NCBI RefSeq assembly: GCF_002585305.1
Contig: NZ_NUNF01000038.1
Location: forward strand, 60,597 to 124,596
DNA: 64,000 bases
Direction of reading: 5' to 3'
DNA from: Bacillus sp. AFS037270
GTDB lineage: Bacteria; Bacillota; Bacilli; Bacillales_B; DSM-18226
The translations under genes were made by a program, and so were the position numbers. The number at the start of each line of letters is the position of its first letter. The stretch's first letter is position 1. The notes under the pieces are model-generated. The model was given only the letters and a program-made list of their open reading frames with translations, did no database searches and was not told the DNA's origin. Shown piece after piece: positions 10,885-59,960 of this stretch.

Positions 10885-11856
10885 TTAAGCCCACCACATT
10901 TCCGATACTTGCTCTTTAAACAAAGTTCCTTTTAACAGTGTGATTGCTTTCATTAAGCCTTCATCGATAGAAGCCAACATATCTTCATGTTCAATGGAAA
11001 CCACGTAATCATACCCTACTGCACGAAGTGTACTGATCATATCTTTCCACATTTTTTCGTTATGGCCATAGCCAACTGAGCGGAAGGTCCATGAGCGATC
11101 CAATACTTGACTGTAATGCTTCGTATCGAGAACACCATTCACCTTGATATTGGCTTGGTCTAAATAGGTATCTTTTGCATGGAAATGGAAGATCGCATTT
11201 TCACGGCCTAATTTTTTAATGGCCTCAACTGGATCAATTCCTTGCCATACCAAATGACTTGGGTCAAAGTTAGCTCCGATGTTCGGTCCTGCATGTTCTC
11301 TTAGTTTTAGTAATGTTTCCGGATTATAGACAACAAAGCCTGGATGCATTTCGAAAGCAATTTGGTGAATCCCATGCTGTTCAGCGAATTTTGCCTCTTC
11401 TTTCCAGTACGGAATAACCACATCATTCCATTGCCACTCTAAAACTTCTGTATATTCAGAAGGCCAAGAGCAGGTCACCCAATTTGGAAACTTGGCACCC
11501 GGATGATCCCCTGGACATCCAGCAAAACCATTGATAACTGGTACCTCTAACTGTTCAGCCAGTAAAACCGTTTTTCTCCATACATCATGCGCCTCTTTGG
11601 CAGCCTTTACATTAGGATGTAGAGGGTTGCCATGGCAGCTTAGTCCGCTGATGGTTAGTCCCCTGCTTTCAATCGCCTGTCGGAACAATTTGATTTTATC
11701 TGGATTCCCTAACAATTCATCGGGATTACAATGACTGTTCCCTGGATAGTTACCGGTCCCTAACTCAATGGTCTCTACTCCCATTTGGGCTAATTTATCT
11801 AACATGGCTTCGAAAGGAAGATTTTGATATAGAACAGTAAATACACCTAGTTTCAC
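10885..11856 (-). CDS. TIM-barrel sugar phosphate isomerase/epimerase, cassette copy 1
   Basis: A 323-residue xylose isomerase-like (AP endonuclease family 2) enzyme. Probable metal ligands are E169 (AFEMHPGF), D198 and H201 (NFDPSHLVWQG), H226 (FHFHAKDT) and E289 (SIEHEDM). The C-terminus ends EMWWA. The start is GTG, overlapping the preceding dehydrogenase stop by 4 bases. Its AGGAGGT site lies inside the last codons of that gene, so translation is coupled. Two close paralogues occur at 31576 and 48763, each with the same partner. Relatives handle inososes, 3-keto-glycosides or keto-sugars. The reaction here is unknown. Confidence 0.85.
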   Translation of the reverse strand: MKLGVFTVLYQNLPFEAMLDKLAQMGVETIELGTGNYPGNSHCNPDELLGNPDKIKLFRQAIESRGLTISGLSCHGNPLHPNVKAAKEAHDVWRKTVLLAEQLEVPVINGFAGCPGDHPGAKFPNWVTCSWPSEYTEVLEWQWNDVVIPYWKEEAKFAEQHGIHQIAFEMHPGFVVYNPETLLKLREHAGPNIGANFDPSHLVWQGIDPVEAIKKLGRENAIFHFHAKDTYLDQANIKVNGVLDTKHYSQVLDRSWTFRSVGYGHNEKMWKDMISTLRAVGYDYVVSIEHEDMLASIDEGLMKAITLLKGTLFKEQVSEMWWA

Positions 11857-13031
11857 ACTAAAACCTCCTTATTCATCTGAACTTTCACCCATTTTTGCTG
11901 CTCATGGCTTTCCAGAATGGCATCCGTAATCGCCATTGAAATATGACCGTCTTCAAATGTGGCGAAATTCGGTTTATCCTGGAGCGGATCTTTGCCTTCA
12001 CGAATGAACGTATAAACATTGAACATCATATTTTTCAGAGCATCAGGCCAGCCTTCATTATGTCCACCAGGATGATGGATGGCTGATTTTGCTTCCGGTG
12101 AGAAGAGTGCTGGATCGGCAAGCAGGATTTCATTCGGCTTATCCCTGTGCCCCATCCATAATTTTTCAGGCTCTTCTTGGTTCCAATATACAGAACTCTT
12201 GCTGCCATTAATCTCAAAGCTTAGTCGATTTTTTCGGCCTGCACTTACTTGTGAAACAGTGAAGACTCCTCTTGATCCATCTTCAAAACGAACTAGTACG
12301 GATGCATAGTCTTCTGTATTGATTGAAACATCTTCATATTCTAAATCTTCAGTACTTTGTGTGCTGAAAGTGGCCACACTTCCAATTGCTTTCTTTCTAA
12401 CTGGAATGACCGTTGCTAAATCAGCAAATACTTCTACAATCTTTTTACCGGTAACAAATTGAACGGTGTCACACCAATGAGACCCGATATCTGCTACTGC
12501 GCGAGATTTTCCGCCGACTTCCGGTGCTAAACGCCAGTTAAAATCCGTTTCATATAGTAACCAATCCTGCAAATAGCTTCCGTGAACCAAATTCACTTTC
12601 CCAAGGTCACCGTTAGCAATTTTAGCTCGCAGGTTTTGCACACTCGCATGCTGTCTGTAATTAAAGTTCACACCATGTACAACACCCTGTTTTTGAGCCA
12701 ATGCCAACAATTCCGCTGATTCTTCACTATTCATCGCAAGCGGTTTCTCTGAGATCACATGTTTACCTGCTAAAATAATTTCTTTATTGATCGCAAAGTG
12801 CACATGGTTTGGGGTACAATTATGAACTACCTGAATTTCGCTGTCACGCAGCATTTCACGGTAATCTCCGTATGCTTTCGGAATTCCAAGTTCAGCTGCC
12901 TTTCTTTCCGCTTGTTCTTGACTCGTCTCGGCTAATGCTACGACTTCCACGAATCCAAGTCTTCTGATTGCTTCAATATGTGTCGGGCCAATGAAACCTG
13001 TCCCGATGATTCCTACTTTTATTTTTTCCAT
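11853..13031 (-). CDS. Gfo/Idh/MocA-family dehydrogenase, cassette copy 1
   Basis: A 392-residue NAD(P)-dependent dehydrogenase. The Rossmann motif VGIIGTGFIGPTH is at residues 5-17, the family lysine is in SEKPLAM, and ADIGSHWCDTVQFVTGK carries the active-site Asp/His. The ATG at 13031 has GGAGGAC upstream; the open frame extends 19 codons further without support. It is followed with 4-base overlap by an isomerase. The pair is present three times in the window with very high similarity. It presumably oxidises a sugar, inositol or glycoside hydroxyl before the isomerase acts. Three LacI-type operators precede it, so it heads the 13.0-7.6 kb operon. Confidence 0.85.
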   Translation of the reverse strand: MEKIKVGIIGTGFIGPTHIEAIRRLGFVEVVALAETSQEQAERKAAELGIPKAYGDYREMLRDSEIQVVHNCTPNHVHFAINKEIILAGKHVISEKPLAMNSEESAELLALAQKQGVVHGVNFNYRQHASVQNLRAKIANGDLGKVNLVHGSYLQDWLLYETDFNWRLAPEVGGKSRAVADIGSHWCDTVQFVTGKKIVEVFADLATVIPVRKKAIGSVATFSTQSTEDLEYEDVSINTEDYASVLVRFEDGSRGVFTVSQVSAGRKNRLSFEINGSKSSVYWNQEEPEKLWMGHRDKPNEILLADPALFSPEAKSAIHHPGGHNEGWPDALKNMMFNVYTFIREGKDPLQDKPNFATFEDGHISMAITDAILESHEQQKWVKVQMNKEVLV

Positions 13032-13092
13032 TTGTTTTCCGTCCTCCAATCGAACTTTTCGATTCACCCAAGAATGAGTAGAAGTCATTTGG

Positions 13093-31575: not shown

Positions 31576-32544
31576 TTAAGCCCACCACATATCCGTTAAC
31601 TGCTCTTTAAACAGGATGTCCTTTAGTAGAGAGATAGCTTTACTTAGCCCCTCATCGTTGGATGCAAGCATGTCTTCATGTTCAATCGAAAGAACATAAT
31701 CATATCCGACAGAACGGAGTGCACTAACCATATCCTTCCACACTTTTCCATCATGTCCATACCCTACTGAACGGAATGACCATGAACGCTCAAGGATATC
31801 GCTATAATGTTTTGTATCTAGGACACCATTAATTTTGATATTGGCTTGATCTAAATAAGTATCCTTTGCATGGAAATGGAAGATGGCATTTTCCCGGCCT
31901 AATTTCTTAATTGCTTCAACAGGATCTATTCCCTGCCAAACAAGGTGGCTAGGGTCGAAATTGGCGCCTATATTTTCCCCAGCGTATTCTCTTAATTTTA
32001 ATAGTGTTTCAGGATTATAGACTATAAAGCCTGGATGCATTTCAAAAGCTACATTTAAACCATGTGACTTGGCATATTGAGCTTCTTCCTTCCAGTATGG
32101 AATAACCACTTGGTTCCATTGATAATTCAGCACATCCAAATATTCAGGCGGCCATGAACATGTAACCCAGTTTGGATTTTTAGCACCCGCATGGTCACCA
32201 GGGCAGCCAGAAAAACCATTCACAACCGGTACCCCTAAACGTTCCGCCAACAAAACCGTTTTTCTCCAAACCTCATGAGATCCGTTAGCAAACTTTTTAT
32301 CGGGATGCAGCGGATTTCCGTGGCAGCTTAAACCACTAATCGTTAACCCTCTGCTTTCTATTGCCTGTAAGAAACCTCTGGCTTTTTCCGGTGACTCCAA
32401 TAATTCATCCGGATTGCAGTGATGGTTCCCGGGATAATTCCCTGTCCCCAATTCCACTGCTTCTACACCCATCTCAGCTAATTTATCGAGCATGGCTTCG
32501 AACGGAAGATTTTGATATAAGACCGTGAAAACTCCTAGCTTCAT
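31576..32544 (-). CDS. TIM-barrel sugar phosphate isomerase/epimerase, cassette copy 2
   Basis: A 322-residue paralogue of the enzymes at 10885 and 48763. It keeps VAFEMHPGF, NFDPSHLVWQG, FHFHAKDT and SIEHEDM, the predicted metal site, and the DMWWA C-terminus. The ATG overlaps the dehydrogenase stop by 4 bases, with AGGAGGT inside that gene's last codons. It is the last gene of the 40.1-31.6 kb operon. Differences from copy 1 are scattered, e.g. HPDKKFANGSHEVWRKT. The same reaction on the same or a related substrate is expected. Confidence 0.85.
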   Translation of the reverse strand: MKLGVFTVLYQNLPFEAMLDKLAEMGVEAVELGTGNYPGNHHCNPDELLESPEKARGFLQAIESRGLTISGLSCHGNPLHPDKKFANGSHEVWRKTVLLAERLGVPVVNGFSGCPGDHAGAKNPNWVTCSWPPEYLDVLNYQWNQVVIPYWKEEAQYAKSHGLNVAFEMHPGFIVYNPETLLKLREYAGENIGANFDPSHLVWQGIDPVEAIKKLGRENAIFHFHAKDTYLDQANIKINGVLDTKHYSDILERSWSFRSVGYGHDGKVWKDMVSALRSVGYDYVLSIEHEDMLASNDEGLSKAISLLKDILFKEQLTDMWWA

Positions 32545-33719
32545 ATAAGTACCTCCTTACCAGCTTGAACCTTCACCCATTTCTGCTGCTGGTTACTTTC
32601 CAAGATAGCATCGGTAATACACATGGAAATGTGGCCATCTTCAAATGTAGCAAAATTAGGTTTGTCTGTTTTCAAGCTCTTGCCATCACGAACAAATGAA
32701 TAGAAATTCAACATCATATTTTTCAATGCATCCGGCCAGCCTTCATTATGGCCGCCAGGGTGGTGGATTGCAGACCTTGCTTCTGGAGTAAACAGGGAAG
32801 GATCTGCTAGCAGAATCTCATTTGCCCGATCCCTGTGTCCGATCCATAGCTTTTCTGGCTCCTCTTGATTCCAGAAAACAGAGCTTTGACTGCCATTGAT
32901 TTCAAAGCTTAATCTATTTTTCCGTCCAGCACTTACCTGGGATACCGTAAATACTCCTCTGGACCCATCTTCAAAACGGACAAGAACGGAAGCATAATCT
33001 TCTGTATTGATTGAAACATCTTCATACTCTTGTTCCTCTATATTCTGTGCACTAAACGTAGCAATTGTATTTTTGGCTTTCTTTCTGACAGGAACAACCG
33101 TTGCTAAATCAGCGAAAACTTCCACAATTCGCTTTCCTGTTACATATTGTACTGTATCGCACCAATGGGAGCCAATATCGGCAACTGCTCGAGATTTCCC
33201 GCCTACTTCTGGGGCGAGACGCCAGTTGAAATCTGTTTCAAACAATAACCAATCTTGCAGATAGCTTCCATGAACCAAGTTCACTTTTCCAAGGTCACCG
33301 TTTACAACCATTGCGTGTAAGTTTTGTACACTGGCATGCTGTCTGTAATTAAAGTTCACCCCATGGACAACACCGTGTTTTTCTGCTAGTTCTAGTAATT
33401 CTGCCGATTCTTCACTATTCATCGCCAGCGGTTTTTCAGAGATGACATGCTTACCTGCCAAAATAATCTCTTTATTAATGGCAAAATGCAGGTGATTTGG
33501 CGTGCAATTGTGCACGACATGGATATCGCGGTCTTGTAGCATTTCACGATAATTGCCATAGGCTTTTGGAATCCCGAGTTCGGCAGCTTTTTTTTCTGCT
33601 GCTTCCTGACTGGTTTCCGCTAATGCAACTACTTCTACAAATCCCAGTCTTCTGATCGCCTCAATGTGGGTTGGTCCAATAAAACCTGTTCCGATGATTC
33701 CAACCTTTATCTTTTCCAT
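32541..33719 (-). CDS. Gfo/Idh/MocA-family dehydrogenase, cassette copy 2
   Basis: A 392-residue close paralogue of 11853 and 49731. It shares VGIIGTGFIGPTHIEAIRRL, SEKPLAMNSEESAELL, ADIGSHWCDTVQYVTGK and the C-terminal KEVLI. Start ATG immediately follows the TAA of the preceding dehydrogenase (TAAATG), with GAGGAG about 12 bases before. In this operon it lies downstream of a different Gfo/Idh/MocA enzyme and an ABC importer, so the cassette is linked to a transporter here, while copy 1 is linked to an MFS carrier. Confidence 0.85.
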   Translation of the reverse strand: MEKIKVGIIGTGFIGPTHIEAIRRLGFVEVVALAETSQEAAEKKAAELGIPKAYGNYREMLQDRDIHVVHNCTPNHLHFAINKEIILAGKHVISEKPLAMNSEESAELLELAEKHGVVHGVNFNYRQHASVQNLHAMVVNGDLGKVNLVHGSYLQDWLLFETDFNWRLAPEVGGKSRAVADIGSHWCDTVQYVTGKRIVEVFADLATVVPVRKKAKNTIATFSAQNIEEQEYEDVSINTEDYASVLVRFEDGSRGVFTVSQVSAGRKNRLSFEINGSQSSVFWNQEEPEKLWIGHRDRANEILLADPSLFTPEARSAIHHPGGHNEGWPDALKNMMLNFYSFVRDGKSLKTDKPNFATFEDGHISMCITDAILESNQQQKWVKVQAGKEVLI

Positions 33720-45256: not shown

Positions 45257-46435
45257 TTATTTTGCTGCACCTTGAATAGATTTTGGTGCCTCTTGGTGGT
45301 AAACAAGTTTCCATGCACCTAATACATTTTCTTTCGTTACATTTAAAGCGGGAACGGCTACATAAGCAGGTGCTTCTTTACCAAGTATAGAATAACCGGC
45401 TAAAATTGCTTCTGAAATCCCCTGGTCATATGGCAGCTGGGCACCTAGACCTTTAATCAAACCATTTGATGCAATGTCTAAAGCTACGTTTGTCCCTAAA
45501 TCAATGGTCGTAATGACAAAATCTTTCTTTCCTGCAGTACGGGCTGCTGCTAATGCACCTTCAGCTGGAACGTCCCAAACGACAAACATTCCATCAAGGT
45601 CACGATTTTTGGTAAGCATACCTGATGCTACTTTTTCCCCATCGTTAGGGCCAATGATTCCGCCGCGTTCAACGATTTTGATTTTCGGATATTTTTCTTT
45701 GATTGTTTTTTCAAAGGCTTCTGTACGCTGTTTGGTCACAAAGTAATCAGCATCATGATAGATTACGCCGATCTTCCCTTTTCCACCAAGCTGTTTCGCC
45801 ATGATTTCAGCTGCTTGAACACCATTGCCATAGTTGTCTGCAGATACAACGCTCACATAATCCTTGCCGGCTTCTAATCCTTTTGGTTTATTATCCATGA
45901 ACACGACTTTGACTCCTGCATCTGCCGCTTTCTTAAAAGCGGATGCAGTTGAAACAGGGTCTACTGGTATCCCCACGATAATATCCGGCTTTTTAGCTAA
46001 AACTGTTTCGATGTCGGATACTTGTTTTTCAGCCTTAAACTGGGCATCAGTAACAGCTACGACTTTAATTCCCATCTTTGCAAAAGTTGCTTTTAAGCCA
46101 TTGATTTGTGCTGTTGCCCAGTCATTACCAGCATAGTGCATAACAATCGCCGCTTTGTATTTGCCTTCTTTAATCTTTTGTACTTCTTCTTCCGTAAGCT
46201 TCAACGTTTTTGCAGAAACGGCCGCTTCCCCACTTGGACCTTTACTTAAAATCTCTTGGTCAGGGATATCTTGGTTTATCGTTATTGGACCTGAAACTAC
46301 TGCCGTTTCTTCTGTTTTAGTGCTCTCTGTCTCTTTGCTTCCGCTGCTAGTTGTGCTGCTTTCCTTCCCGCACCCGACAAGTGCGATACTAGTAATAAAT
46401 AGAATCATAGTGATAATAGACAGTAACTTTTTCAT
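45257..46435 (-). CDS. Orphan sugar-binding lipoprotein (RbsB-like, with N-terminal linker)
   Basis: About 392 residues. The lipoprotein signal peptide ends SIALVGC with C22 lipidated. A Ser/Thr/Glu-rich spacer leads to an unusual conserved linker: GPSGEAAVSAKTLKLTEEEV, then QKIKEGKYKAAIVMHYAG. The binding fold follows (IIVGIPVDPVSTASAFKKAA; VVSADNYGNGVQAAEIMA). The ATG at 46435 follows GGGGGCTAATC. No permease or ATPase is adjacent. It is the closest relative in the window to the C-terminal domain of the hybrid kinase at 57064. One LacI-type operator lies 94 bases upstream. Confidence 0.86.
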   Translation of the reverse strand: MKKLLSIITMILFITSIALVGCGKESSTTSSGSKETESTKTEETAVVSGPITINQDIPDQEILSKGPSGEAAVSAKTLKLTEEEVQKIKEGKYKAAIVMHYAGNDWATAQINGLKATFAKMGIKVVAVTDAQFKAEKQVSDIETVLAKKPDIIVGIPVDPVSTASAFKKAADAGVKVVFMDNKPKGLEAGKDYVSVVSADNYGNGVQAAEIMAKQLGGKGKIGVIYHDADYFVTKQRTEAFEKTIKEKYPKIKIVERGGIIGPNDGEKVASGMLTKNRDLDGMFVVWDVPAEGALAAARTAGKKDFVITTIDLGTNVALDIASNGLIKGLGAQLPYDQGISEAILAGYSILGKEAPAYVAVPALNVTKENVLGAWKLVYHQEAPKSIQGAAK

Positions 46436-46528
46436 GATTAGCCCCCTATTGAGCATCGAATTTTTTTAACACTTTGATTAAAATATCGAATTTTACTTGT
46501 TGTTATGTATCACATCCTCTCTCTGAGT

Positions 46529-48762: not shown

Positions 48763-49734
48763 TTAAGCCCACCACATCTCGGTAATTTTCTCCTTGAACA
48801 TGGCCCCTTTTAAGAGAGTAATAGCTTTGCTTAGTCCCTCGTCGGTGGAAGCAAGCATATCTTCATGTTCGATGGAAATGACATAATCGTATCCGACCGC
48901 TCGAAGGGCACTTACTATGTCTTTCCACATTTTTTCGTCCGAGCCGTATCCGACTGATCTAAATGTCCAAGAGCGGTCTAAAATTTGGCTATAATGCTTT
49001 GTATCTAAAACACCATTAATCTTGATATTTGCTTGATCTAAATAAGTGTCCTTCGCATGGAAATGGAAAATCGCATTTTCCCTGCCAAGCTTTTTGATGG
49101 CCTCGACCGGGTCAATTCCTTGCCAAACAAGGTGGCTCGGATCAAAGTTTGCACCAATGTTTTCGCCGGCATGCTCCCTTAACTTTAGTAGAGTTTCAGG
49201 ATTATAAACTACAAATCCTGGGTGCATCTCAAAAGCTATTTGATTAATGCCGTGCAACTTCGCGAATTTTGCTTCCTCTTTCCAATAAGGAATAACGACT
49301 TCGTTCCATTGCCAGTTCAGCACTTCTAAATATTCCGGAGGCCATGAGCATGTAACCCAGTTTGGATTTTTTGCACTTATATGATCACCCGGACAGCCGG
49401 AGAAGCCATTGATAACAGGAACTTCCAAAAGTTCTGCAAGTAATACCGTTTTTCGCCAAACGTCATGTGACTCTTGAGCAATGTTTACATTTGGATGAAG
49501 CGGGTTACCGTGGCAGCTTAAGCCGCTGATCGTTATTCCCCTAGTTTCAAGCGCTCTCAGGAATGATTTTCTTTTTTCAGGAGATTCAAGCAATTCATCC
49601 GGATTACAGTGATGATTGCCGGGATAATTCCCTGTCCCCAATTCAACGGCCTCCACACCCATGGCTGCCAGTTTATCCAACATTTCTTCAAAAGGCAGGT
49701 TCTGATACAAGGGGGTAAATACACCTAATTTCAC
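48763..49734 (-). CDS. TIM-barrel sugar phosphate isomerase/epimerase, cassette copy 3
   Basis: A 323-residue paralogue of 10885 and 31576 with the same metal-site motifs (AFEMHPGF, NFDPSHLVWQG, FHFHAKDT, SIEHEDM) and EMWWA end. The start is GTG overlapping the dehydrogenase stop by 4 bases, with the AGGAGGT site inside that gene. In this copy the pair lies downstream of importer 3, so all three cassettes have different transport partners. Confidence 0.85.
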   Translation of the reverse strand: MKLGVFTPLYQNLPFEEMLDKLAAMGVEAVELGTGNYPGNHHCNPDELLESPEKRKSFLRALETRGITISGLSCHGNPLHPNVNIAQESHDVWRKTVLLAELLEVPVINGFSGCPGDHISAKNPNWVTCSWPPEYLEVLNWQWNEVVIPYWKEEAKFAKLHGINQIAFEMHPGFVVYNPETLLKLREHAGENIGANFDPSHLVWQGIDPVEAIKKLGRENAIFHFHAKDTYLDQANIKINGVLDTKHYSQILDRSWTFRSVGYGSDEKMWKDIVSALRAVGYDYVISIEHEDMLASTDEGLSKAITLLKGAMFKEKITEMWWA

Positions 49735-50909
49735 GCAAGTACCTCCTTGCTAGCCTGAACCTTCACCCATTTCTGCTGCTGGTTACTTTCTAAGATTGCG
49801 TCTGTGATACACATCGAAAGGTGCCCGTCTGCAAATGTCGCAAAATTAGGCTTGTCTGTTTTCAGACTTTTGCCGTCGCGAACAAATGTGTAGAAATTGA
49901 ACATCATATTTTTCAATGCATCCGGCCAGCCTTCATTATGCCCTCCAGGATGATGAATAGCAGACCTTGCCTCCGGTAAAAACAACGCCGGATCCGCTAA
50001 TAGAACTTCATTTGCTTTATCCCGGTACCCAATCCATAGCTTCTCAGGTTCTTCTTGGTTCCAGAAAATCGAGCTTTTGCTTCCGTTAATCTCAAAGCTT
50101 AGTCGATTTTTCCGTCCAGCACTTACTTGAGATACCGTAAAAACGCCTCTTGATCCATCTTCAAACCGGACAAGCACGGATGCATAGTCTTCTGTATTAA
50201 TTGGTACATCATCATATTGCATATCTTCCGCCGTCTGTGCCCCGAAAGTTGCTACGTTTCCTGTCGGTTTCTTTCTTACTGGAACAACAGTTGCTAAATC
50301 GGCAAAAACTTCGACAATCCTTTTGCCTGTTACAAATTGGACGGTATCACACCAATGGGAACCAATGTCCGCTACTGCGCGTGACTTTCCGCCTACTTCC
50401 GGCGCCAAACGCCAGTTGTAGTCTGTTTCATATAATAACCAGTCCTGCAAGTAGCTTCCGTGAACCAAGTTCACTTTCCCAAGATCACCTTCAGTGATTT
50501 TCGCTTTTAAGTTTTGTACACTCGCATGCTGTCTGTAATTAAAGTTCACCGCATGGATGACACCTTGCTTTTCTGCTAACTCCAACAATTCTGCTGATTC
50601 ATCACTGTTCATAGCCAGTGGTTTCTCCGAGACAACATGCTTTCCAGCTAAAATGATCTCTTTGTTGATGGCAAAATGAAGATGATTTGGTGTACAGTTG
50701 TGCACGACCTGGATTTCGCTGTCTTTCAGCATTTCTTGGTAATCACCATAGGCTTTCGGGATTCCAAGTTCGGCTGCTTTTTTTTCAGCAGCTTCCTGAC
50801 TTGTTTCTGCCAAACCAACTACTTCTACAAAGCCAAGTCTTCTGATGGCTTCAATATGGGTTGGCCCGATAAAACCAGTACCAATGATACCAACTTTAAT
50901 CTTCTTCAC
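49731..50909 (-). CDS. Gfo/Idh/MocA-family dehydrogenase, cassette copy 3
   Basis: A 392-residue close paralogue of 11853 and 32541. It has VGIIGTGFIGPTHIEAIRRL, SEKPLAMNSDESAELL, ADIGSHWCDTVQFVTGK and a KEVLA end. AGGAGGAAGAAAGGTGAAG precedes the ATG. The gene is separated from the importer-3 permease by a small repeat array (50990-51113). Presumed NAD(P)-dependent oxidation of a sugar, inositol or glycoside. Confidence 0.85.
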   Translation of the reverse strand: MKKIKVGIIGTGFIGPTHIEAIRRLGFVEVVGLAETSQEAAEKKAAELGIPKAYGDYQEMLKDSEIQVVHNCTPNHLHFAINKEIILAGKHVVSEKPLAMNSDESAELLELAEKQGVIHAVNFNYRQHASVQNLKAKITEGDLGKVNLVHGSYLQDWLLYETDYNWRLAPEVGGKSRAVADIGSHWCDTVQFVTGKRIVEVFADLATVVPVRKKPTGNVATFGAQTAEDMQYDDVPINTEDYASVLVRFEDGSRGVFTVSQVSAGRKNRLSFEINGSKSSIFWNQEEPEKLWIGYRDKANEVLLADPALFLPEARSAIHHPGGHNEGWPDALKNMMFNFYTFVRDGKSLKTDKPNFATFADGHLSMCITDAILESNQQQKWVKVQASKEVLA

Positions 50910-51128: not shown

Positions 51129-52109
51129 TTACCTCTTCAACGCTTTCTTACCGAAAGCCACCGCCAAGATAATGATAATTCCTTTGATAATCATTTGCTG
51201 GCTGACATCAAGACCCATGATAATCAAACCATTGTTGATCGTACCAATCATTAAGGAACCAACAATAGTTCCGATAATCGTTCCTACACCGCCAAACAAG
51301 CTTGTTCCACCAAGAATAACCGCAGCGATAACAGAAAGCTCATCGCCTTCACCGAAGGAGAAACGTCCGGCATTCATACGGCCCGCATAGAGAAGACCAG
51401 CTAAACCAGCCATTAAACCCGTTGCAAGGAAAACTATTAGCTTGATTTTCATTGTCTTTACACCAGAGAATCTAGCCGCATTTTCGTTACCGCCTGTTGC
51501 CAATACCTGGCGGCCAAATGATGTCTTACGAAGTAATATATGGGCAATCACTGTAAATACTAGAGTCCAAATAAGTAAAACTGGAATTGGACCAATGTCC
51601 CCTGAACCAAAGATGAAATTGAAATTTGCGTCTACAATCGGAACTGGAGCAGTATCTGTAACCCACATCGCAGCACCTTTAACGGCTCCCATCGTTCCCA
51701 GTGTTACCAAGAAGGAAGGAATCGCTACTTTTGTAACAAGCAACCCATTGATTAATCCAACCACAAGTCCAGTACCTACACCACCGATGAGTCCACCAAT
51801 AATGCCATAACCCGCTTGGATGGCTAATGCACCGACTAGAGAAGAAAGGGCAGCAATGGAACCAACAGAAAGGTCAATCTCCCCTGTACTAATAACAAAT
51901 GTCATTGCCAACGCCATCAAAGAAATCGTCGCTGTTTGTCTAACAATGTTTAATAAGTTCCCTGAAGTTAAGAAACCTTCATCACTTAAGCTGATAGAAA
52001 AATAGATTAATACGCCCACGAAGGCAAAATAGACAATATAATTACGCCACTCGAATCCCTTCAATGAAGGAGTTGCTGGCTTTTGAATACTAGAAACCTT
52101 GGATTGCAT
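51129..52109 (-). CDS. Sugar ABC transporter permease (RbsC-like), importer 3
   Basis: A 326-residue BPD_transp_2 permease with LAMTFVISTGEIDLSVGSIA (GE rather than GG before IDLSVG) and GGTSLFGGVGTIIGTIVGSL. The ATG at 52109 has GAGGAGGAATTACAAT upstream and lies 20 bases inside the ATPase gene, so translation is coupled. It is the sole permease of importer 3. Confidence 0.88.
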   Translation of the reverse strand: MQSKVSSIQKPATPSLKGFEWRNYIVYFAFVGVLIYFSISLSDEGFLTSGNLLNIVRQTATISLMALAMTFVISTGEIDLSVGSIAALSSLVGALAIQAGYGIIGGLIGGVGTGLVVGLINGLLVTKVAIPSFLVTLGTMGAVKGAAMWVTDTAPVPIVDANFNFIFGSGDIGPIPVLLIWTLVFTVIAHILLRKTSFGRQVLATGGNENAARFSGVKTMKIKLIVFLATGLMAGLAGLLYAGRMNAGRFSFGEGDELSVIAAVILGGTSLFGGVGTIIGTIVGSLMIGTINNGLIIMGLDVSQQMIIKGIIIILAVAFGKKALKR

Positions 52110-53586
52110 ATTGTAATTCCTCCTCTGATTTAATCTCCCTGCGGGTCATTTCCTTTTTAATTTTCCCATCATGCATAACGATGACACGATCACTCAAAGC
52201 AAGCAGTTCTGGAAGTTCGGAAGAGACCACAAGGATTGCCTTGCCGTTTTCGGCCATGGCTCTAATAATCTCCACAATTTCCGTTTTTGCACCAATATCC
52301 ACACCAATCGTTGGTTCATCCAACATCAAGACAGTAGGGTCGTTCGCCAGCCATTTAGCTAGAACGATTTTTTGCTGATTACCGCCCGATAACAACCCGG
52401 CCTTTTTAAAAATATTATCCGTTTTAATATTTAACTTCCTTACAAATTCATTACTAATCTCATTGGATTTCTTACTATCAATAAAAGCTCCTTTTTTCAC
52501 CTTCGAAAGAATTGGAAGAATCATATTATCCTTGACACTATGTTCAAGGACCAATCCTTGCATCCGGCGGTCCTCCGGAATCAGTGCAAGTCCGGCTTCT
52601 ATGGCATTCTTAGGATTCTTAATGGATTGTTTTTGACCATTGATGTAGATGTCTCCACTCTCAATGGGATCAATCCCGAAGAGATTTCGAAGTAATTCCG
52701 TTCTTCCGCTTCCCATCAACCCGGCGATTCCGACGATTTCACCCGGCTGAATTTTAAGATTAATATCCTGGACATGTTCGGCATTTAAGTTTCTTACTTC
52801 AAAAATGGGCGGCACGTCCGTTGCGTAGGAACGTTCTTTCCATTCAAAAGCTTGGTCAAATTGCATACCGACTATATGTGAAATTACACTATCAAGATCG
52901 GTTTCACTGCATTTTTCTGTTGTGACATATCGTCCATCACGCATAATCGTGATTCGGTCACATATTTCAAAGATTTCATCCATCCGGTGAGAAATATAGA
53001 TGATGGAATAACCTTTTGCTTTCAATTTGTTAATAAAACTAAAGAGTACTTCAGTTTCATTTTTGGTTAAGGACGAGGTTGGCTCATCCATAATTAGAAT
53101 CTTTGCTTCTTGGGAAAGTGCTTTGGCAATTTCCGTCATCTGCCAATAGCCAACCCCCAAATTTTGAACTACATCATTTGGTCTAATATCTACGCCTAAT
53201 TCTTCTAGCAATTTTTCTGTTTTCTTCTCACAATCCTTATCATCGAGCAGCCCTAATGATGTTTTCTTCTCACGAGTAAGATAGATGTTTTGGGCGACGG
53301 TAAGGGTAGGAATTAAACTAAACTCTTGGAAAATCATCGATATATTATTCTTTTGAGCATCATCATAACTTTTAATGCTTACCGGTTTTCCTTCAATTAA
53401 AATCTCGCCGCTGTCTGCAGAGTATACGCCTGTGAGGATTTTCATTAACGTCGATTTCCCGGCACCATTTCCCCCCATCAAGGCGTGAACTTCACCTTTT
53501 TTGACGGAAAAATGGACATCGTTTAAAACGGTAATCCCATTAAAAGCTTTATTAATACCTCTCATTTCGAGAATCGGTTGTTCCAT
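52090..53586 (-). CDS. Sugar ABC transporter ATP-binding protein (RbsA-like), importer 3
   Basis: A 498-residue double ATPase with Walker A GGNGAGKSTLMK, first-half Walker B ILIMDEPTSSLTKNE, signature LSGGNQQKIVLAKWL and LMLDEPTIGVDIG. AAAGAAGGTGAACTTGG precedes the ATG. It follows the binding-protein gene, from which it is separated by a stable hairpin. Powers uptake through the permease at 51129. Confidence 0.9.
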   Translation of the reverse strand: MEQPILEMRGINKAFNGITVLNDVHFSVKKGEVHALMGGNGAGKSTLMKILTGVYSADSGEILIEGKPVSIKSYDDAQKNNISMIFQEFSLIPTLTVAQNIYLTREKKTSLGLLDDKDCEKKTEKLLEELGVDIRPNDVVQNLGVGYWQMTEIAKALSQEAKILIMDEPTSSLTKNETEVLFSFINKLKAKGYSIIYISHRMDEIFEICDRITIMRDGRYVTTEKCSETDLDSVISHIVGMQFDQAFEWKERSYATDVPPIFEVRNLNAEHVQDINLKIQPGEIVGIAGLMGSGRTELLRNLFGIDPIESGDIYINGQKQSIKNPKNAIEAGLALIPEDRRMQGLVLEHSVKDNMILPILSKVKKGAFIDSKKSNEISNEFVRKLNIKTDNIFKKAGLLSGGNQQKIVLAKWLANDPTVLMLDEPTIGVDIGAKTEIVEIIRAMAENGKAILVVSSELPELLALSDRVIVMHDGKIKKEMTRREIKSEEELQYAIQGF

Positions 53587-53651: not shown

Positions 53652-54821
53652 TTATTTCATCGCATTTTTTACTGTGTCAGGAGCCTCTGTTCCGTAGATT
53701 AACTTCCATTCATCTAATACATTCTCTTTCGTAACTTTGATGGATGGTGAAGCAACATACGCTGGTGCTTCTTTTCCTAATAGGGCATAGCCGGCAAGGA
53801 TCGCTTGTGCTACACCTTGGTCATATGGCAGCTGTGCTCCAAGACCTTTAACAATTCCATCTTGTGCTATGGAGATTGCTACGTTTGTACCTAAGTCAAC
53901 TGTTGTAACAACTAGGTCATCCCTGCCAGCCGTTCTTGCTGCAGCCATAACACCTTCAGCCGGTACATCCCATGGTGCGAAGATACCATCAATATCATGG
54001 TGTCTTGTCAACATAGCAGATGCTACTTCTTCTGCCTGATTTGGACCAGTAATCCCACTTTTTGCGACAATCTCAATATTTGGATATTTTTCTTTGATTC
54101 TTTTTTCAAAAGCATCAGAACGGTTTTTGGTTACAAAGAAGTTTACATCGTGATACAAAATGCCGACTTTACCCTTTCCGCCAAGTTTTTCAGCCATGAT
54201 GTCTGCTGCGGTTGCTCCGTTACCCATGTTGTCACCAGACACAATACTGATGTAATCTTTACCTGCAACTAAACCTTGTGCAGCACCATCCATGAATACT
54301 AACTTTACGCCTTGGGCAACAGCCTTTTTATAAGCTGGTGCGGTAGATACGGCATCAACTGGAACAGAAATCATAATGTCCGGCTTTTTCGCTAAAACGG
54401 TTTCGATATCATTTACTTGCTTTTCCGCTTTGAACTGTGCATCTGTTACAGCAACGATCTTGATGCCCATCTTCTTAAATGTATCCTTCATCGCACCAAC
54501 TGCGGCATTCATATAGTCAGTACCAGAGTAGTGCATAACAATCGCCGCTTTATAATTACCTTCTTTAATCTTCTTTAGCTCATCTTCCGTAAGCTGCAAT
54601 GTCTTAGCTGAAACGGCCTGTTCTCCGTTCGGCCCTTTATCTTGTACCGCTAAATCAGGAATCTTTGGATTGATCGTTAATGGTCCTGAAGCTGTTTCTG
54701 AGTAGTTATCATTCTTTTTCGTGCTCGCTTGTTCAGATGTAGATTTTTTTCCGCCACACCCTGCAAGAAAAACACTTAAAACAAGTAACAGTAAAACTGT
54801 AATAGAAAAACTCTTTTTCAT
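53652..54821 (-). CDS. Sugar-binding lipoprotein (RbsB-like, with N-terminal linker), importer 3
   Basis: About 389 residues. The signal peptide ends SVFLAGC with C22 lipidated. The linker GPNGEQAVSAKTLQLTEDEL, then KKIKEGNYKAAIVMHYSG, is shared with the protein at 45257 and with the hybrid kinase. The binding fold includes IMISVPVDAVSTAPAYKKAV and GLGAQLPYDQGVAQAILAGY. The ATG at 54821 follows AGTGGGGGTAATCAA. It is the first gene of importer 3. Two LacI-type operators lie upstream, between it and the LacI paralogue. Confidence 0.88.
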   Translation of the reverse strand: MKKSFSITVLLLLVLSVFLAGCGGKKSTSEQASTKKNDNYSETASGPLTINPKIPDLAVQDKGPNGEQAVSAKTLQLTEDELKKIKEGNYKAAIVMHYSGTDYMNAAVGAMKDTFKKMGIKIVAVTDAQFKAEKQVNDIETVLAKKPDIMISVPVDAVSTAPAYKKAVAQGVKLVFMDGAAQGLVAGKDYISIVSGDNMGNGATAADIMAEKLGGKGKVGILYHDVNFFVTKNRSDAFEKRIKEKYPNIEIVAKSGITGPNQAEEVASAMLTRHHDIDGIFAPWDVPAEGVMAAARTAGRDDLVVTTVDLGTNVAISIAQDGIVKGLGAQLPYDQGVAQAILAGYALLGKEAPAYVASPSIKVTKENVLDEWKLIYGTEAPDTVKNAMK

Positions 54822-54941
54822 TTGATTACCCCCACTATAATAGTTATTTAGTTGAAGCTCGTTATTTGTCGGTACCACCTTACAAACTATAAGTGTGGCA
54901 CCACCCCCTTTTCATAAATGTAAGCTTAATAGAATATTACT

Positions 54942-55019: not shown

Positions 55020-55895
55020 CTAAAAAATTTTCACATACTGCTGACAAGACTGTCTTACAATCAACTGGTCAGCTAAAAACATTTGCTCGTGTTTGATTTC
55101 CTCTTTGTTGATGAGCCTCAATAGTAAATCCGCCACTTTCTCACCAATTTCAAACGCGGGCTGGACAATCGTTGTCAGACCTGGTTCGAATATGGACGAG
55201 AATTTCAGATTATCAAAACCGAGAACCGAAATATCCTCTGGCACCTTAAGCCCCTTAGATTTAATGGCTTTAATGACTCCCATTGCCATTTCATCATTGG
55301 CAGCGAAAATCGCAGATGGGAGTTGACCAATGGCAAAAAACTTCATCATAAGGTTAAAACCGCTTTCAAAAGAGAAATCACCTTCCTGGACTAACACAGG
55401 ATCCACGATAAGGTTGTTGCTTGACATTGCTTGATAAAATCCTTTGAGACGGTCTCGGTTCAAGACACTATTGAGAGGTCCAATAATGCAGCCAATTCTT
55501 TCGTGTCCCAAATCGATTAAATATTCCGTTGCTTTTCTGGCACCGCTTATGTTATCAATCGAAACAGTTGTGATGTTGGAACCTTCCATATACTCACACG
55601 CAAGGACCAACGGAAATCTTTGGGCCGCCTCTTCAACGGTTGCTGCATCCGTTTGGGCAGTTAATAAAGCCATTCCATCTGCTTTTTTTTGATCCAAAAG
55701 GTTTAAAAACCACTTTTCTCGTTCCAGATCATTGCCTGTATCGCCGAGTATAACTTGATATCCATTTGTAACCGCTACTGCTTCAATCCCCCTAAACACC
55801 TTTGAAAAAAACGGATTTGTAATGTCAGGCACAACAACTAGAATGGTTTTAGCAGAAACAATTTCCTTCTTTGCTACATCTACAATCCCTACCAT
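55020..55895 (-). CDS. LacI-family paralogue lacking the helix-turn-helix DNA-binding domain
   Basis: About 291 residues from the ATG at 55895 (AAAGGACAAATAACAAAG upstream). It begins MVGIVDVAKKEIVSA and then enters the effector domain KTILVVVPDITNPFFSKVFR. The intact paralogue (13505) reads MVRIADVAKMANVSTATVSR and continues for some 45 more residues before the same KTILVVVPD. So most of the DNA-binding helices and hinge are missing, in frame. The effector domain is complete to the C-terminus and closely similar to the paralogue. It may be a dominant-negative partner or a sugar-binding protein, or a decaying gene. An operator palindrome lies 38 bases upstream. Confidence 0.82.
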   Translation of the reverse strand: MVGIVDVAKKEIVSAKTILVVVPDITNPFFSKVFRGIEAVAVTNGYQVILGDTGNDLEREKWFLNLLDQKKADGMALLTAQTDAATVEEAAQRFPLVLACEYMEGSNITTVSIDNISGARKATEYLIDLGHERIGCIIGPLNSVLNRDRLKGFYQAMSSNNLIVDPVLVQEGDFSFESGFNLMMKFFAIGQLPSAIFAANDEMAMGVIKAIKSKGLKVPEDISVLGFDNLKFSSIFEPGLTTIVQPAFEIGEKVADLLLRLINKEEIKHEQMFLADQLIVRQSCQQYVKIF

Positions 55896-55932
55896 CTTTG
55901 TTATTTGTCCTTTCTTGTTTCTATATTTGGAT

Positions 55933-55946
55933 TGTAATCGATTACA
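55933..55946. promoter_or_regulatory. LacI-type operator, site 11
   Basis: Exact TGTAATCGATTACA upstream of the LacI paralogue. Confidence 0.65.
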
Positions 55947-56073
55947 AAATTGTCGTCTAATCATCTTCCGACAAGGTTTTTTTTCAACTGAAATCGTTTT
56001 CCATCCTTTTGGACACAATCATCGTTCATTCGGACAATAAAATCATAAATTTTTTAAAAAAACAAAAAAAATT

Positions 56074-56098
56074 GAGGTCCGGTAAACCCGGACCTCAC
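56074..56098 (-). terminator. Terminator of the LytTR response regulator
   Basis: TGAGGTCCGG and CCGGACCTCA form a perfect 10-bp stem. On the minus strand it is followed by ATTTTTTTTG. The stem overlaps the last bases of the gene. Confidence 0.9.
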
Positions 56099-56808
56099 AA
56101 CGATTTATTTTTTTGTAATTCTGCTAACTTATTCTTGGAAACCTTTGCTGTCTCCTCATAATTTTTAAAATATGCTTTGTACGTTTGCCCTGCGGTTTCA
56201 ATCCTCTTTAAATATTGCAAATTAATAATATAGGAACGATGGGAGGCTACAAAACGGGAATCAAGGAGTTCTTCAAGATTCGTTAATGCCTCATTTAACT
56301 CTATTTTTAGATCATTCGTATGGATAACAGCCTTTCGGTCTGCTCGTTCAATAAAAATAATGTCATCTAATGGTATAAATGAAAACTGATTGGACTGTTT
56401 AACCATTAAATCCTTCTTAACCGATGGGCGCTCGCTTTCAGCCGCAGGCTTGGCAAGTGCAGCTGCTCGTCCTAACGCTGCATAAAGACGGTCACGGTCA
56501 ATAGGTTTGACAATGTAATCGATTGCATTTACATCAAAAGCTTCTAAGGCAAACTCATCATGTCCGGTAATAAAGATAACTTGCAATGACGGGACTACTT
56601 TTTTACAAGATTTCACCGCTTCCATCCCATTCAACAATGGCATATTAATATCAACCAAAATGATGTCTGGCTTTTCTATCATCACCTTGCAAATTAAATC
56701 CTCACCATTAACGGCTTCTCCAACCATTTCATAACTCTGCAAAGGTTTAATGAGATGCTTCAATAGTTTTCTGGATGGTGCATGGTCCTCTGCAATTAAA
56801 ACTCTCAA
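56095..56808 (-). CDS. LytTR-family response regulator
   Basis: A 237-residue regulator. The receiver domain (1-120) has acidic residues in LIAEDHA, phosphoacceptor D53 in LVDINMPLLNG and the late lysine in YIVKPIDRDRL. A linker follows, then a LytTR DNA-binding domain from about 135 (VKQSNQFSFIPLDDIIFIER; DSRFVASHRSYIINLQYLKR; VSKNKLAEL). LytTR proteins bind direct repeats upstream of target promoters. It is divergent from the hybrid kinase at 57064 with a 255-base intergenic region, so the two probably form a regulatory pair. Its own terminator overlaps the end. Confidence 0.9.
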   Translation of the reverse strand: MRVLIAEDHAPSRKLLKHLIKPLQSYEMVGEAVNGEDLICKVMIEKPDIILVDINMPLLNGMEAVKSCKKVVPSLQVIFITGHDEFALEAFDVNAIDYIVKPIDRDRLYAALGRAAALAKPAAESERPSVKKDLMVKQSNQFSFIPLDDIIFIERADRKAVIHTNDLKIELNEALTNLEELLDSRFVASHRSYIINLQYLKRIETAGQTYKAYFKNYEETAKVSKNKLAELQKNKSL

Positions 56809-57063
56809 AAGATCACCTCATATTAAAAGCTTTTATTTAAGTGGAACATTAATATAAAAATAATAGATAACATACTACTATTTGAAATCGCTGTCAAACT
56901 AACTACTCTCAGTATAAGGCAGTTTAAGCAGGATAGGAAGTATTTTAATATTAAATAGGTATGGCGGTTTTTTGCAGTTTTAAAGAAGAATTACTGTGGA
57001 CTATACTAAAGCTACGGCTTCAGGAAAATGCATGACTATTCTTTCGGAAGGCAGGGTATAAAA

Positions 57064-59637
57064 ATGGAAATCACCCCTAACGAAAATTTATATAAAGAAG
57101 TTTTACAAACCATGTCTGAATGCGTCATTATTCATAAAAAGTCGGGTAGAATGATTGCGCTTAATGAAAATGTTGAAAAAGTACTTGGTATTAAATCCGA
57201 TTTATTAACGGAAGCAAATGTAAGCAAATTAGATTATGTAAAAGAAGACGGATCCTCCCTACCCTATTCAGAATTGCCTGGAATCATCACCCTCGAACAG
57301 GGGATTCCTTTCCATGATTATGTCTTGGGAGTAAGCGATCGAAATAATGGGACTAAATGGCTTTCCATTACTTCAAAACCACTTAAATTACATAAAGACG
57401 GGGAACAAGCCGCGCTTGTGACCATATCGGATATTACCGAACGAAAAAAGATGGAACAAACAATCCTTCAAGCAAAAGAAGCGGCGGAAAAAGCAAACCT
57501 AACCAAATCGGACTTTCTTTCCAAAATGAGTCATGAACTCCGGACCCCTTTGAACGGAATCCTTGGTTTTGCCCAGCTATTAGAAATAGATGAAACCTTA
57601 AATGAGGAGCAGCAGGACTTTGTCCAAGAGATCTTAAGCGGAGGAAAGCATCTGTTAAGCTTAATTAATGATATTTTAGATTTATCCAGAATCGATACAG
57701 GCCAATTAAAAGTTTCAATTGAAGAGGTAGATCTGCTGACCATTATCAATGAATGTATCCATATCGTGCAGCCGCTTGCCATGAAAAAAAGAATTACAAT
57801 TCATAATCAAATGGACCATTCGCAAACTGTAACCGTTCTTGCCGATCCGATTCGCCTAAAACAAATCCTACTTAATCTTCTCGATAATGCCATCAAATAT
57901 AACCGGGAAGACGGCAAAGTCATGATTTTCTCTTATATGAAACAAAACGAGGCAGTTATTCATATTGCCGATACAGGAGTCGGGCTTTCAGTTGAAGAAT
58001 ATCAGAAAGTGTTTGTCCCATTTTATCGGATTAAAGGGACACAAGAGGAAGGTACGGGCATTGGATTGTCTTTGGTCAAGCAGCTTGTCCAGGTGATGGG
58101 CGGAAAAATCAGTGTGACAAGCAAAAAAGGAATAGGCAGTGATTTTTGCTTTCGACTCCCTCTTCCCTATGAATTAAAGGCCGCGATGCAATGGGGTGAA
58201 GAAGTGATCGATCTTCCAGCTAAGAATGGCAAGACTGATCACTACTGTTTGCTATATGTGGAAGATAATCAATCTAATTTAAATTTGGTCATGAGCATCC
58301 TGAAATCGGAACCCTCCTATACAATCTTAACGGCACGTTCCGGAAAAGAAGGATTAGAACTGGCTAAGACTGAAAAAGTCGATTTAATTCTGCTGGATCT
58401 TAACCTACCGGATATCCATGGTTTCGAATTATTTGACCGTTTAAAAAAGGATGAAAATACGAAAGATATCGTGATTATTGCGGTAAGTGCCAATGCTATG
58501 CCCCATGACATCCAGCATACATTAAACAAAGGGTTTGATAATTATGTGATAAAACCCATTAATGTGAAGGGATTCTTAACAACGGTAAACGAGACTCTAA
58601 CGAGTACGATCAATCAAAATATTCCCGAGCGTAAAATTTTAAGTACAGGTCCATACGGTGAGGAAGCTGTTTCTGCTAAAACACTACAGTTATCGGTAAA
58701 GGATCTAAAGCAACTGAAGGATAAAAAATATAAGGCTGCCATTTCCATGCACTATACAGATAATGATTGGTCCAGGTCTCAAGTGGAAGGGTTAAAAGCT
58801 ACTTTTAAGAAAATAGGTATTGAGGTAGTTGCGGTGACAGATGCACAGTTTAATTGGGAGAAGCAAGTGGAAGATATTGAAAACATCTTAGAATTAAAGC
58901 CAGATATTATAGTAGGGATTCCTGTTGATCCGGAAAAAACGTCAAACACCTTCCAAGTTGCGTCGAGAACTGGGGTTCATCTGGTCTTTATAGACAATGT
59001 ACCAAAGGGATTACTGCCTACAAGGGATTATGTAAGCATTGTATCTGCTGACAATTATGGAAACGGTAGTGAGGCAGCACATATTATGGCCGAGAAATTA
59101 TCTTACAAAGGCAAGATTGGGGTTATTTATCATGCTGCCGACTTCTTCGCCACAAAACAAAGGACAGAATCATTTGAAAATATGATAATGAAACATTATC
59201 CAAACATCAAAATTGTGGACCGTAGAGGGATTGTAGGTCCATATGAAGGAGAAATTGCAGCAACTAGTATGTTAACGAAAAATAAAGATTTGGCCGGAAT
59301 CTTTGTTGTATGGAGTGATCCTGCCGAAGGAGTCATAGCTGCAGCACGTAAGGCAGGCGCTGATCATCTAGTTATCACAACGATTGATATGGGGGTTAAT
59401 GTTGTATTAGAAATGGTTAAAGATGGACTTATTAAGGGATTGGGTGCCCAGCTGCCCTATCAACAAGGAGTGGCGGAAGCCATCTTGGCAGGTTATGCAC
59501 TGATTGGAAAACAGGCTCCAGCTTATGTAGCTGTTCCCCCTTTAAGAGTAACAAAAGAGAATGTTCTTGATGCTTGGAAGTTAGTTTATAACGAGGAAGC
59601 TCCGGATGTTATTAAAAGGTTTATAACTAATGAATGA
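57064..59637 (+). CDS. Soluble hybrid histidine kinase: PAS-HisKA-HATPase-REC fused to a sugar-binding-protein domain
   Basis: About 857 residues from the ATG at 57064 (AGGCAGGG upstream; an ATG at 57028 is also possible). PAS about 8-128; HisKA H-box FLSKMSHELRTPLNGILGF with H157; HATPase N-box LLNLLDNAIKYN, DTGVGLS and GTGIGLSLVKQL. A receiver domain (about 393-512) has VEDN, phosphoacceptor D445 in LLDLNLPDIHG and IKPI. From about residue 515 to the end comes an RbsB-like domain with the same linker (GPYGEEAVSAKTLQLS) as the lipoproteins at 45 and 54 kb. There is no signal peptide or transmembrane segment. The likely role is a cytoplasmic sugar-responsive kinase acting on the divergent LytTR regulator. 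Confidence 0.9.
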   Translation: MEITPNENLYKEVLQTMSECVIIHKKSGRMIALNENVEKVLGIKSDLLTEANVSKLDYVKEDGSSLPYSELPGIITLEQGIPFHDYVLGVSDRNNGTKWLSITSKPLKLHKDGEQAALVTISDITERKKMEQTILQAKEAAEKANLTKSDFLSKMSHELRTPLNGILGFAQLLEIDETLNEEQQDFVQEILSGGKHLLSLINDILDLSRIDTGQLKVSIEEVDLLTIINECIHIVQPLAMKKRITIHNQMDHSQTVTVLADPIRLKQILLNLLDNAIKYNREDGKVMIFSYMKQNEAVIHIADTGVGLSVEEYQKVFVPFYRIKGTQEEGTGIGLSLVKQLVQVMGGKISVTSKKGIGSDFCFRLPLPYELKAAMQWGEEVIDLPAKNGKTDHYCLLYVEDNQSNLNLVMSILKSEPSYTILTARSGKEGLELAKTEKVDLILLDLNLPDIHGFELFDRLKKDENTKDIVIIAVSANAMPHDIQHTLNKGFDNYVIKPINVKGFLTTVNETLTSTINQNIPERKILSTGPYGEEAVSAKTLQLSVKDLKQLKDKKYKAAISMHYTDNDWSRSQVEGLKATFKKIGIEVVAVTDAQFNWEKQVEDIENILELKPDIIVGIPVDPEKTSNTFQVASRTGVHLVFIDNVPKGLLPTRDYVSIVSADNYGNGSEAAHIMAEKLSYKGKIGVIYHAADFFATKQRTESFENMIMKHYPNIKIVDRRGIVGPYEGEIAATSMLTKNKDLAGIFVVWSDPAEGVIAAARKAGADHLVITTIDMGVNVVLEMVKDGLIKGLGAQLPYQQGVAEAILAGYALIGKQAPAYVAVPPLRVTKENVLDAWKLVYNEEAPDVIKRFITNE

Positions 59638-59697: not shown

Positions 59698-59960
59698 CCG
59701 GCATGGGTGCAGTCTCTAGGGTGAAAGTCCCGATCCATGTAGGCAGTAGTAATGGTTAGCTTAATGCAAGGGTGTCCGTGGTAACTCGGAATCTGAACGA
59801 AGCGAGCGGCAACCCTCCGGTCTGAGGAACACGAACTATAAGGCTAGGTATCATTGGATGAGTTTGCTTTACAAAACAAAGTCCTTACTGCCGAAGGTGG
59901 TACAGAGTAAATGAAGCAGATCTAAAAAGCTCAGAGGCTCCTCCCTTCAAGTATTGGTTA
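59698..59960 (+). mobile_element. 5' fragment of a bacterial group II intron
   Basis: The sequence has landmarks of group II intron domain I, as I recall them from maturase-encoding introns of bacilli. They are TCTAGGGTGAAAGTCCCGAT, then GTAACTCGGAATCTGAACGA, AGCGAGCGGCAACC, GAACACGAACTATAAGGCTA and GGATGAGTTTGC. No maturase reading frame and no domain V-like hairpin follow within the next 250 bases. The copy is therefore truncated and presumably inactive. Exact ends are uncertain. Confidence 0.65.

Follow-up and report, generated by a model that had tools for sequence, protein, structure and literature searches.

We identified a predicted soluble hybrid histidine kinase in which a complete sugar-binding-protein domain follows the receiver, at the C-terminus of the chain, in the stretch of 64,000 nucleotides analysed here (the window; Table 1). 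The domain architecture, the conservation of catalytic and pocket residues, the origin of the binding domain among transporter-type binding proteins and the linkage to a regulator gene can all be read from the sequences compared. We think it rather likely that the fused domain serves as a cytosolic receptor for an imported sugar and sets the phosphorylation of the LytTR regulator encoded next to it, and the domain was probably gained only once.

Table 1. Position, strand and basis of assignment of the features discussed (positions are those of the window).
Feature	Position	Strand	Basis
SBP2, second lipoprotein sugar-binding protein	45257..46456	-	Closest paralogue of the fused domain in the window; VGC lipobox-like N-terminus
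Isomerase/dehydratase-like protein	48763..49734	-	One weak relative, a myo-inosose dehydratase model, below cut-off
Gfo/Idh/MocA dehydrogenase	49731..50909	-	Pfam; nearest model levoglucosan dehydrogenase, below cut-off
Permease	51129..52109	-	Pfam BPD_transp_2
ABC ATPase, CUT2-type	52090..53586	-	Pfam
SBP1, lipoprotein sugar-binding protein of the adjacent operon	53652..54878	-	Pfam; hydrophobic N-terminus with LAGC
LacI-type protein without DNA-binding part	55020..56018	-	No Pfam match to LacI HTH
LytTR response regulator, presumed partner of the kinase	56095..56808	-	Pfam Response_reg and LytTR; neighbour in 24 of 25 relatives
Divergent promoter region, with conserved element 56910-56933	56809..57063		Comparison of 17 aligned regions
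Hybrid histidine kinase with C-terminal sugar-binding domain, predicted cytosolic	57064..59637	+	Open frame; Pfam; at least 56 clusters sharing its four families
PAS-like region, residues ~5-123	57076..57432	+	Secondary structure of a model; PAS_9 in 24 of 44 relatives
HisKA, residues 148-213, phospho-acceptor H157	57505..57702	+	Pfam
HATPase_c, residues 261-368	57844..58167	+	Pfam
Receiver (Response_reg), residues 397-506; E400, D401, D445, S475, K497	58252..58581	+	Pfam; conservation
Sugar-binding domain (CUT2-type), residues 515-851	58606..59616	+	Paralogue of mature transporter lipoproteins

Domain organization and predicted location of the kinase

The kinase gene encodes 857 amino acids in one frame with zero internal stops. 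An alternative in-frame ATG at 57028 would give a protein of 869 amino acids, and a separate copy of the kinase in the databases (P0002, with 10 differences in 869 positions) is written in this longer form; the start at 57064, which has AAGGCAGGG immediately upstream, is preferred. The initial annotation had described a single frame joining HisKA (H157), HATPase_c, a receiver (D445) and a binding domain, and this was borne out by the open frame and by Pfam matches to HisKA, HATPase_c, Response_reg and Peripla_BP_4 with E-values of 1e-22 to 2e-41. H157 is a histidine in all 57 rows of the family, the HATPase_c residues N271, N275, D303, G305, G307, G330 and G332 are each present in 57/57 rows, and D445 is an aspartate in 56 of the 57, the remaining row having a gap at this position. 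The protein thus combines HisKA, HATPase_c and a receiver with both phospho-acceptors, as a HisKA-type hybrid kinase does. An HPt domain usually, though not universally, links the receiver of a hybrid kinase to the final regulator; no Hpt family was found among the Pfam matches of the 37 window proteins scanned, a scope outside which an unlinked HPt would lie.

A PAS domain had also been claimed for the N-terminal part. Pfam gave no PAS match in the window kinase itself at E 0.01, whereas PAS_9 was matched in 24 and PAS_4 in 21 of the 44 relatives scanned with Pfam, and a structure model places strands and helices in a PAS-like order at residues ~5-123. The PAS claim is therefore upheld indirectly, through the relatives and the model, and not by a match of the kinase's own. 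Together with the further PAS domains present in some relatives, these observations would suit a kinase that takes its main signal through the PAS-like region, with the binding domain modulating this signal or restricting it to sugar-importing cells. We regard such an arrangement as possible but doubtful, as PAS-only kinases of like kind occur unlinked to this sugar cluster, whereas the fused kinase sits in sugar clusters.

Neither an export signal nor a lipobox was found in the fused kinase. Its hydropathy over 19 residues peaks at 1.37, whereas the two lipoproteins reach 2.46 and 2.50 and the permease 2.48, in line with the missing signal peptide and membrane helix reported in the initial annotation. 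The cytosolic placement of the binding domain made there is also supported: lacking an export signal, the kinase and its binding domain are predicted to reside in the cytosol, and the fused domain would belong to the CUT2 binding-protein family without being exported. Membrane anchoring of the family was rejected. Just 4 of the 57 rows have a 19-residue stretch with a hydropathy of at least 1.6, and this stretch lies inside folded domains in P0008, P0027 and P0061 and at an extended N-terminus in P0043.

Linked regulator, sugar genes and ligand pocket

A LytTR regulator gene adjoins the fused kinase gene in 24 of 25 relatives (seven loci in L001-L006 and L008, 13 in L032-L044 and five in L058-L062; L007 was excluded, having no fused kinase). 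The two genes are divergent in 16 of these relatives; in the other eight both are on one strand and the regulator gene is downstream, the matches being 26-138 bases apart. Locus L058 has no LytTR gene in the 19.5 kb around the kinase. A regulator with at least 69% identity occurs in 18 genomes of the family sample, 17 of which contain the fused kinase, and all 17 fused-kinase genomes of this sample carry such a regulator. In genome G074 (locus L052), the regulator and the transporter operon are present and the fused kinase is absent; 2.4 kb off, behind two other genes, is a LacI repressor whose C-terminal domain is 35% identical to the fused domain. At loci L053-L057, with regulators of 48-58% identity, a related kinase is located 0.03-2.6 kb from the regulator and shows no binding-domain match, the kinase match in L057 stopping before the receiver. 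Likewise, Jeotgalibacillus locus L045 has a kinase-LytTR pair that lacks the binding domain; the frame of this kinase stops within the receiver. Since these more distant pairs have no binding domain, the domain was a later addition to a two-component system that already existed.

The conserved element between the divergent genes shows the exact core pattern in 13 of the 17 regions aligned and lacks it in four. With a matrix built from eight distinct sites, the window's own site included, the element scored 28.9, the next matches in the window scored 13.4, 12.3 and 11.8, and a reversed-sequence control reached at most 8.5. Further regulator sites in the window were rejected on these scores, and the element itself may be a plain promoter.

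Read along the minus strand, the regulator gene is followed by a LacI remnant and by genes for the lipoprotein SBP1, the ATPase, the permease, the Gfo/Idh dehydrogenase and the isomerase-like protein. The adjoining sugar transporter and sugar-oxidation genes agree with the sugar-related setting that had been proposed. The DNA-binding part of the LacI protein is absent in the window, L002 and L003, in L001, L006, L033 and L041 the LacI match is split or short, and the DNA-binding part is readable in Domibacillus (loci L004, L005 and L008). With the LacI gene incomplete in several loci, control may have passed to the two-component pair. Against the ATPase (52090..53586), none of the NCBIfam sugar ATPase models scored above cut-off among the matches listed. 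The dehydrogenase reached 207 bits with the levoglucosan dehydrogenase model NF052479, which has a cut-off of 650, and levoglucosan was dropped as a proven substrate. Published levoglucosan clusters combine a similar dehydrogenase with isomerase-like proteins and an ABC transporter, according to the available portion of their description (PMC10066097). There are hints that the substrate could be an anhydrosugar, a glycoside or an inositol-like compound. The window as a whole holds four Gfo/Idh genes (5207-6394, 11853-13088, 32541-33719 and 49731-50909) among several sugar transporters, and three of the four are 86-88% or more alike. It also contains a tandem array (1288-1965) of 12.9 copies of a 53-base unit with 90% matches.

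The ligand pocket was examined at what we take to be the equivalents of the ribose contacts in E. coli RbsB. R700, W750, D775 and Q796 are kept in 57/57 rows and H563 in 56/57; position 644 is D in 51 rows and E in six, and S751 replaces a D only in the window protein and P0002, the D being present in 55 of the 57 rows. Comparing the kinase and transporter-type groups over the columns that are at least 90% conserved in both, the same residue was found in 111 of 114. Positions 567, 569 and 645 are variable, the commonest sets in the kinases being N-W-N (21/57), N-F-S (18/57) and S-W-N (10/57). A lipoprotein with T-Y-G at these positions was found in 17 of the 28 distinct loci scanned, the window included (a 29th locus, L046, overlaps L002 and was not counted as distinct). 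The window kinase differs from SBP1 at all three positions, and so may not sense the substrate of the adjacent operon. It shares N-W-N with SBP2, which points to the ligand of SBP2, or a close relative thereof, as what the kinase probably senses. Co-evolution of the kinase domain with SBP1 was not seen: the pockets differ, and SBP1 is still 99% identical after the exchange of the kinase's C-terminal half in the window.

The mismatch with SBP1, the cytosolic placement and the dehydrogenase and isomerase-like genes of the cluster might also be expected if the domain sensed an intracellular catabolite, e.g., a keto-sugar product of the Gfo/Idh dehydrogenases; the kinase would then report on flux through the pathway and might reduce expression of the genes. 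We consider this unlikely, given that the pocket letters are those of SBP2, a binder of an external ligand. It is less probable still that the domain has ceased to be a ligand receptor and now acts as a structural, dimerisation or docking module. Such a role would be in keeping with the variation at positions 567, 569 and 645 and with the rate of evolution of the domain: its dN/dS of 0.14-0.23 (six pairs among L001, L002, L003 and L006) indicates purifying selection, yet weaker selection and faster evolution than for the transporter lipoprotein of the adjacent operon (0.03-0.06). It is at odds with the conservation of the core pocket residues (56-57 of 57 rows) and with the pocket class, which was left unchanged when the C-terminal half was exchanged between lineages.

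Origin, distribution and exchange of the sensor half

The fused domain begins at residue 515, directly behind the receiver, and has the two-lobed fold and the Pfam match above gathering score (Peripla_BP_4, residues 559-815) that characterize CUT2 binding proteins. It is 65.6% identical to mature SBP2 over 337 amino acids and 57% identical to mature SBP1, also over 337 amino acids and without gaps. What it lacks compared to the lipoproteins is the hydrophobic signal with its lipobox-like cysteine and the tether behind it.

From 210 domains collected, 79 rows were sampled for a tree (29 of 57 kinase-fused, 30 of 120 transporter-type and 7 of 19 ABC-fused domains, and all others minus one distant row). 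In this careful tree a branch with a support of 100/98 separates the kinase-fused domains from all the others; an earlier quick tree, which included a very distant outgroup row, had given the kinase-fused branch a support of 0. Based on the separation in the careful tree, a single fusion of the binding domain to the kinase is likely. The 120 best matches to the kinase half divide into 56 proteins with the binding domain and 64 without it. The kinase and receiver halves of these 64 are 36-61% identical; 63 of them end at most 14 residues past the receiver match and none (0/64) matches the binding domain. As the domain-less kinases end at the receiver, the binding protein must have been joined onto a hybrid kinase that was already complete.

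A search of other genomes for the same domain order returned 56 clusters with the four identical Pfam families among the 120 clusters listed, the query not counted and P0063 (1360 amino acids, chimeric-looking by eye) and P0030 (a fragment) left out; a rescan of 44 rows found all four families in 44/44. Of 193 genomes from one family, 17 carry the fused kinase gene; in a sample of 397 genomes from an order it was found in 8, three of them Domibacillus genomes that were already in the set. The genera listed include Neobacillus, Bacillus, Domibacillus, Peribacillus, Halalkalibacter, Fictibacillus, Niallia, Mesobacillus and Ammoniphilus. Judged by its sequences, the fused architecture is a conserved Bacillales family.

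Identity between the window operon and Neobacillus loci reaches 99%. Compared to L001, L002, L003 and L006, identity is 99% in the transporter lipoprotein and 92-98% in the PAS and kinase parts, whereas it is 79-80% in the receiver and 64-65% in the binding domain, and the DNA identity falls at about base 1020 of the kinase gene, near 58083. Four downstream genes of the window were tested and gave zero matches in these four loci, and the 593 bases 3' of the kinase gene have no match in the other loci compared. Since identity drops within the gene and the downstream DNA is unmatched, an exchange of the 3' half and its flank took place in one lineage. An Rfam match to group II intron D1-D4 (85.7 bits) is located at 59775-59942, 137 bases 3' of the kinase gene. 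This stretch is missing from the other loci compared, and no intron-protein frame of at least 100 amino acids lies between it and the next gene. It is extremely improbable that the fused kinase is an assembly artefact or an accidental read-through of two genes: although the gene is a chimera when set against its closest relatives, a pattern that might be mistaken for an assembly error, the same four families recur in the 56 clusters, the fused gene is found in the 17 of 193 genomes and P0002 has the identical chimera, so that misassembly or a frameshift was discarded.

Proposed signalling and comparison with known systems

Concerning ligand, coupling, phosphate route and target promoters, we infer the following scheme. 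A soluble hybrid kinase of Bacillales would have gained a signal-less copy of a CUT2 binding protein directly behind its receiver. Sugar imported by the neighbouring transporters would close the two-lobed cytosolic domain, and the closure would alter how kinase and phosphatase activity are balanced at H157. Phosphate would then pass to the LytTR regulator encoded by the adjacent gene, either directly or with the kinase's receiver (D445) as an intermediate or brake, and the regulator would in turn control transcription of the transporter and sugar-oxidation genes. We favour sensing of imported sugar because the domain is a paralogue of two neighbouring lipoproteins minus their signal peptide in a protein without a membrane segment; because catalytic and pocket residues are conserved, selection is purifying and the branch support is 100/98; and because the LytTR gene adjoins in 24/25 relatives, the regulator co-occurs in 17/18 genomes and domain-less pairs exist. 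Counted against it were the pocket unlike that of SBP1, the faster evolution of the domain than of SBP1, the lack of a LytTR gene at L058, the S751 in place of D and the support of 0 in the first tree.

On a broader view, which we offer tentatively, an external sugar receptor would have been internalised several times, at the C-termini of a kinase, of LacI repressors and of ABC ATPases, to read imported sugar, the sensor half of the kinase being exchanged between lineages while the kinase half was kept. If so, one binding-protein family would serve both capture outside and sensing inside the cell, and whether bacteria monitor imported sugar with the receptor family used for outside capture would become testable. 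The kinase would also be a soluble sugar-regulated enzyme that is easily purified and engineered, with an exchangeable ligand module. Several fused kinases are publicly named 'ribose transport system substrate-binding protein', as are the domain-less kinases P0249, P0256 and P0277, where the name was probably carried over from fused kinases; a misleading ribose name given with and without the domain hides the family in annotation.

The initial annotation had regarded the kinase as of a kind not recognised. Many proteins share its domain order, and none with a known function was found in the published work searched, a scope outside which subscription papers and preprints lie. As far as searched, a cytosolic C-terminal binding-protein sensor on a kinase is undescribed; in the accessible parts of the literature found, the binding-protein receptors described for sensor kinases all act outside the cytoplasm. 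P0243 and P0249 are Bacillales PAS hybrid kinases that resemble the kinase and receiver halves of the window kinase and lack the binding domain. Four proteins (P0006, P0010, P0013 and P0025) have two tandem copies of the binding domain behind an apparent signal peptide.

Related binding domains also occur behind other cytosolic proteins. LacI repressors with an extra C-terminal binding domain were found at L007:12969-15092 and L052:3871-5952 (the latter assigned without a Pfam scan) and in P0083, P0084 and P0086, and in Jeotgalibacillus (L007) the gene lies behind the same kind of transporter genes. As in the window kinase, the domain in the L007 and L052 fusions (33-35% identical) is placed C-terminally on a cytosolic regulator; these proteins are, however, DNA-binding repressors and not kinases, and several of their pocket letters differ from those of the window kinase. 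In 19 clusters (P0064-P0082; two scanned with Pfam here, the rest taken from precomputed Pfam), an ABC ATPase without a strong hydrophobic segment carries a C-terminal binding domain of the same subfamily as that of the kinase, 48-55% identical and likewise behind a cytosolic enzyme. Unlike the kinase, these are transporter subunits and not signalling proteins; perhaps they represent importers that sense their own substrate from inside.

In a Bacteroides hybrid two-component system, an N-terminal periplasmic sensor and a DNA-binding output are combined in one chain. The window kinase has its sensor at the C-terminus, and no DNA-binding Pfam family was matched in it. A periplasmic sugar domain is described for such hybrid systems (PMC3404733) and for BT1754, an example of them (2x7x), whereas in the window kinase the sugar-binding domain stands behind the receiver of a soluble protein that is accompanied by a separate LytTR regulator. 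The systems XylFII-LytS for D-xylose and CuaDSR for cellobiose control sugar uptake through a binding protein, a kinase and a regulator (PMC6321045, PMC10384115). As far as the available parts of these papers describe them, they resemble the window system in combining a histidine kinase and a response regulator with a sugar-binding protein of the transporter type, and the linked regulator and sugar transporter genes of such three-component systems are indeed present in the window. They differ in having a separate binding protein that acts outside the cytoplasm on the extracytoplasmic part of a membrane-bound kinase, whereas in the window kinase the binding domain is fused, C-terminal and predicted to be cytosolic.
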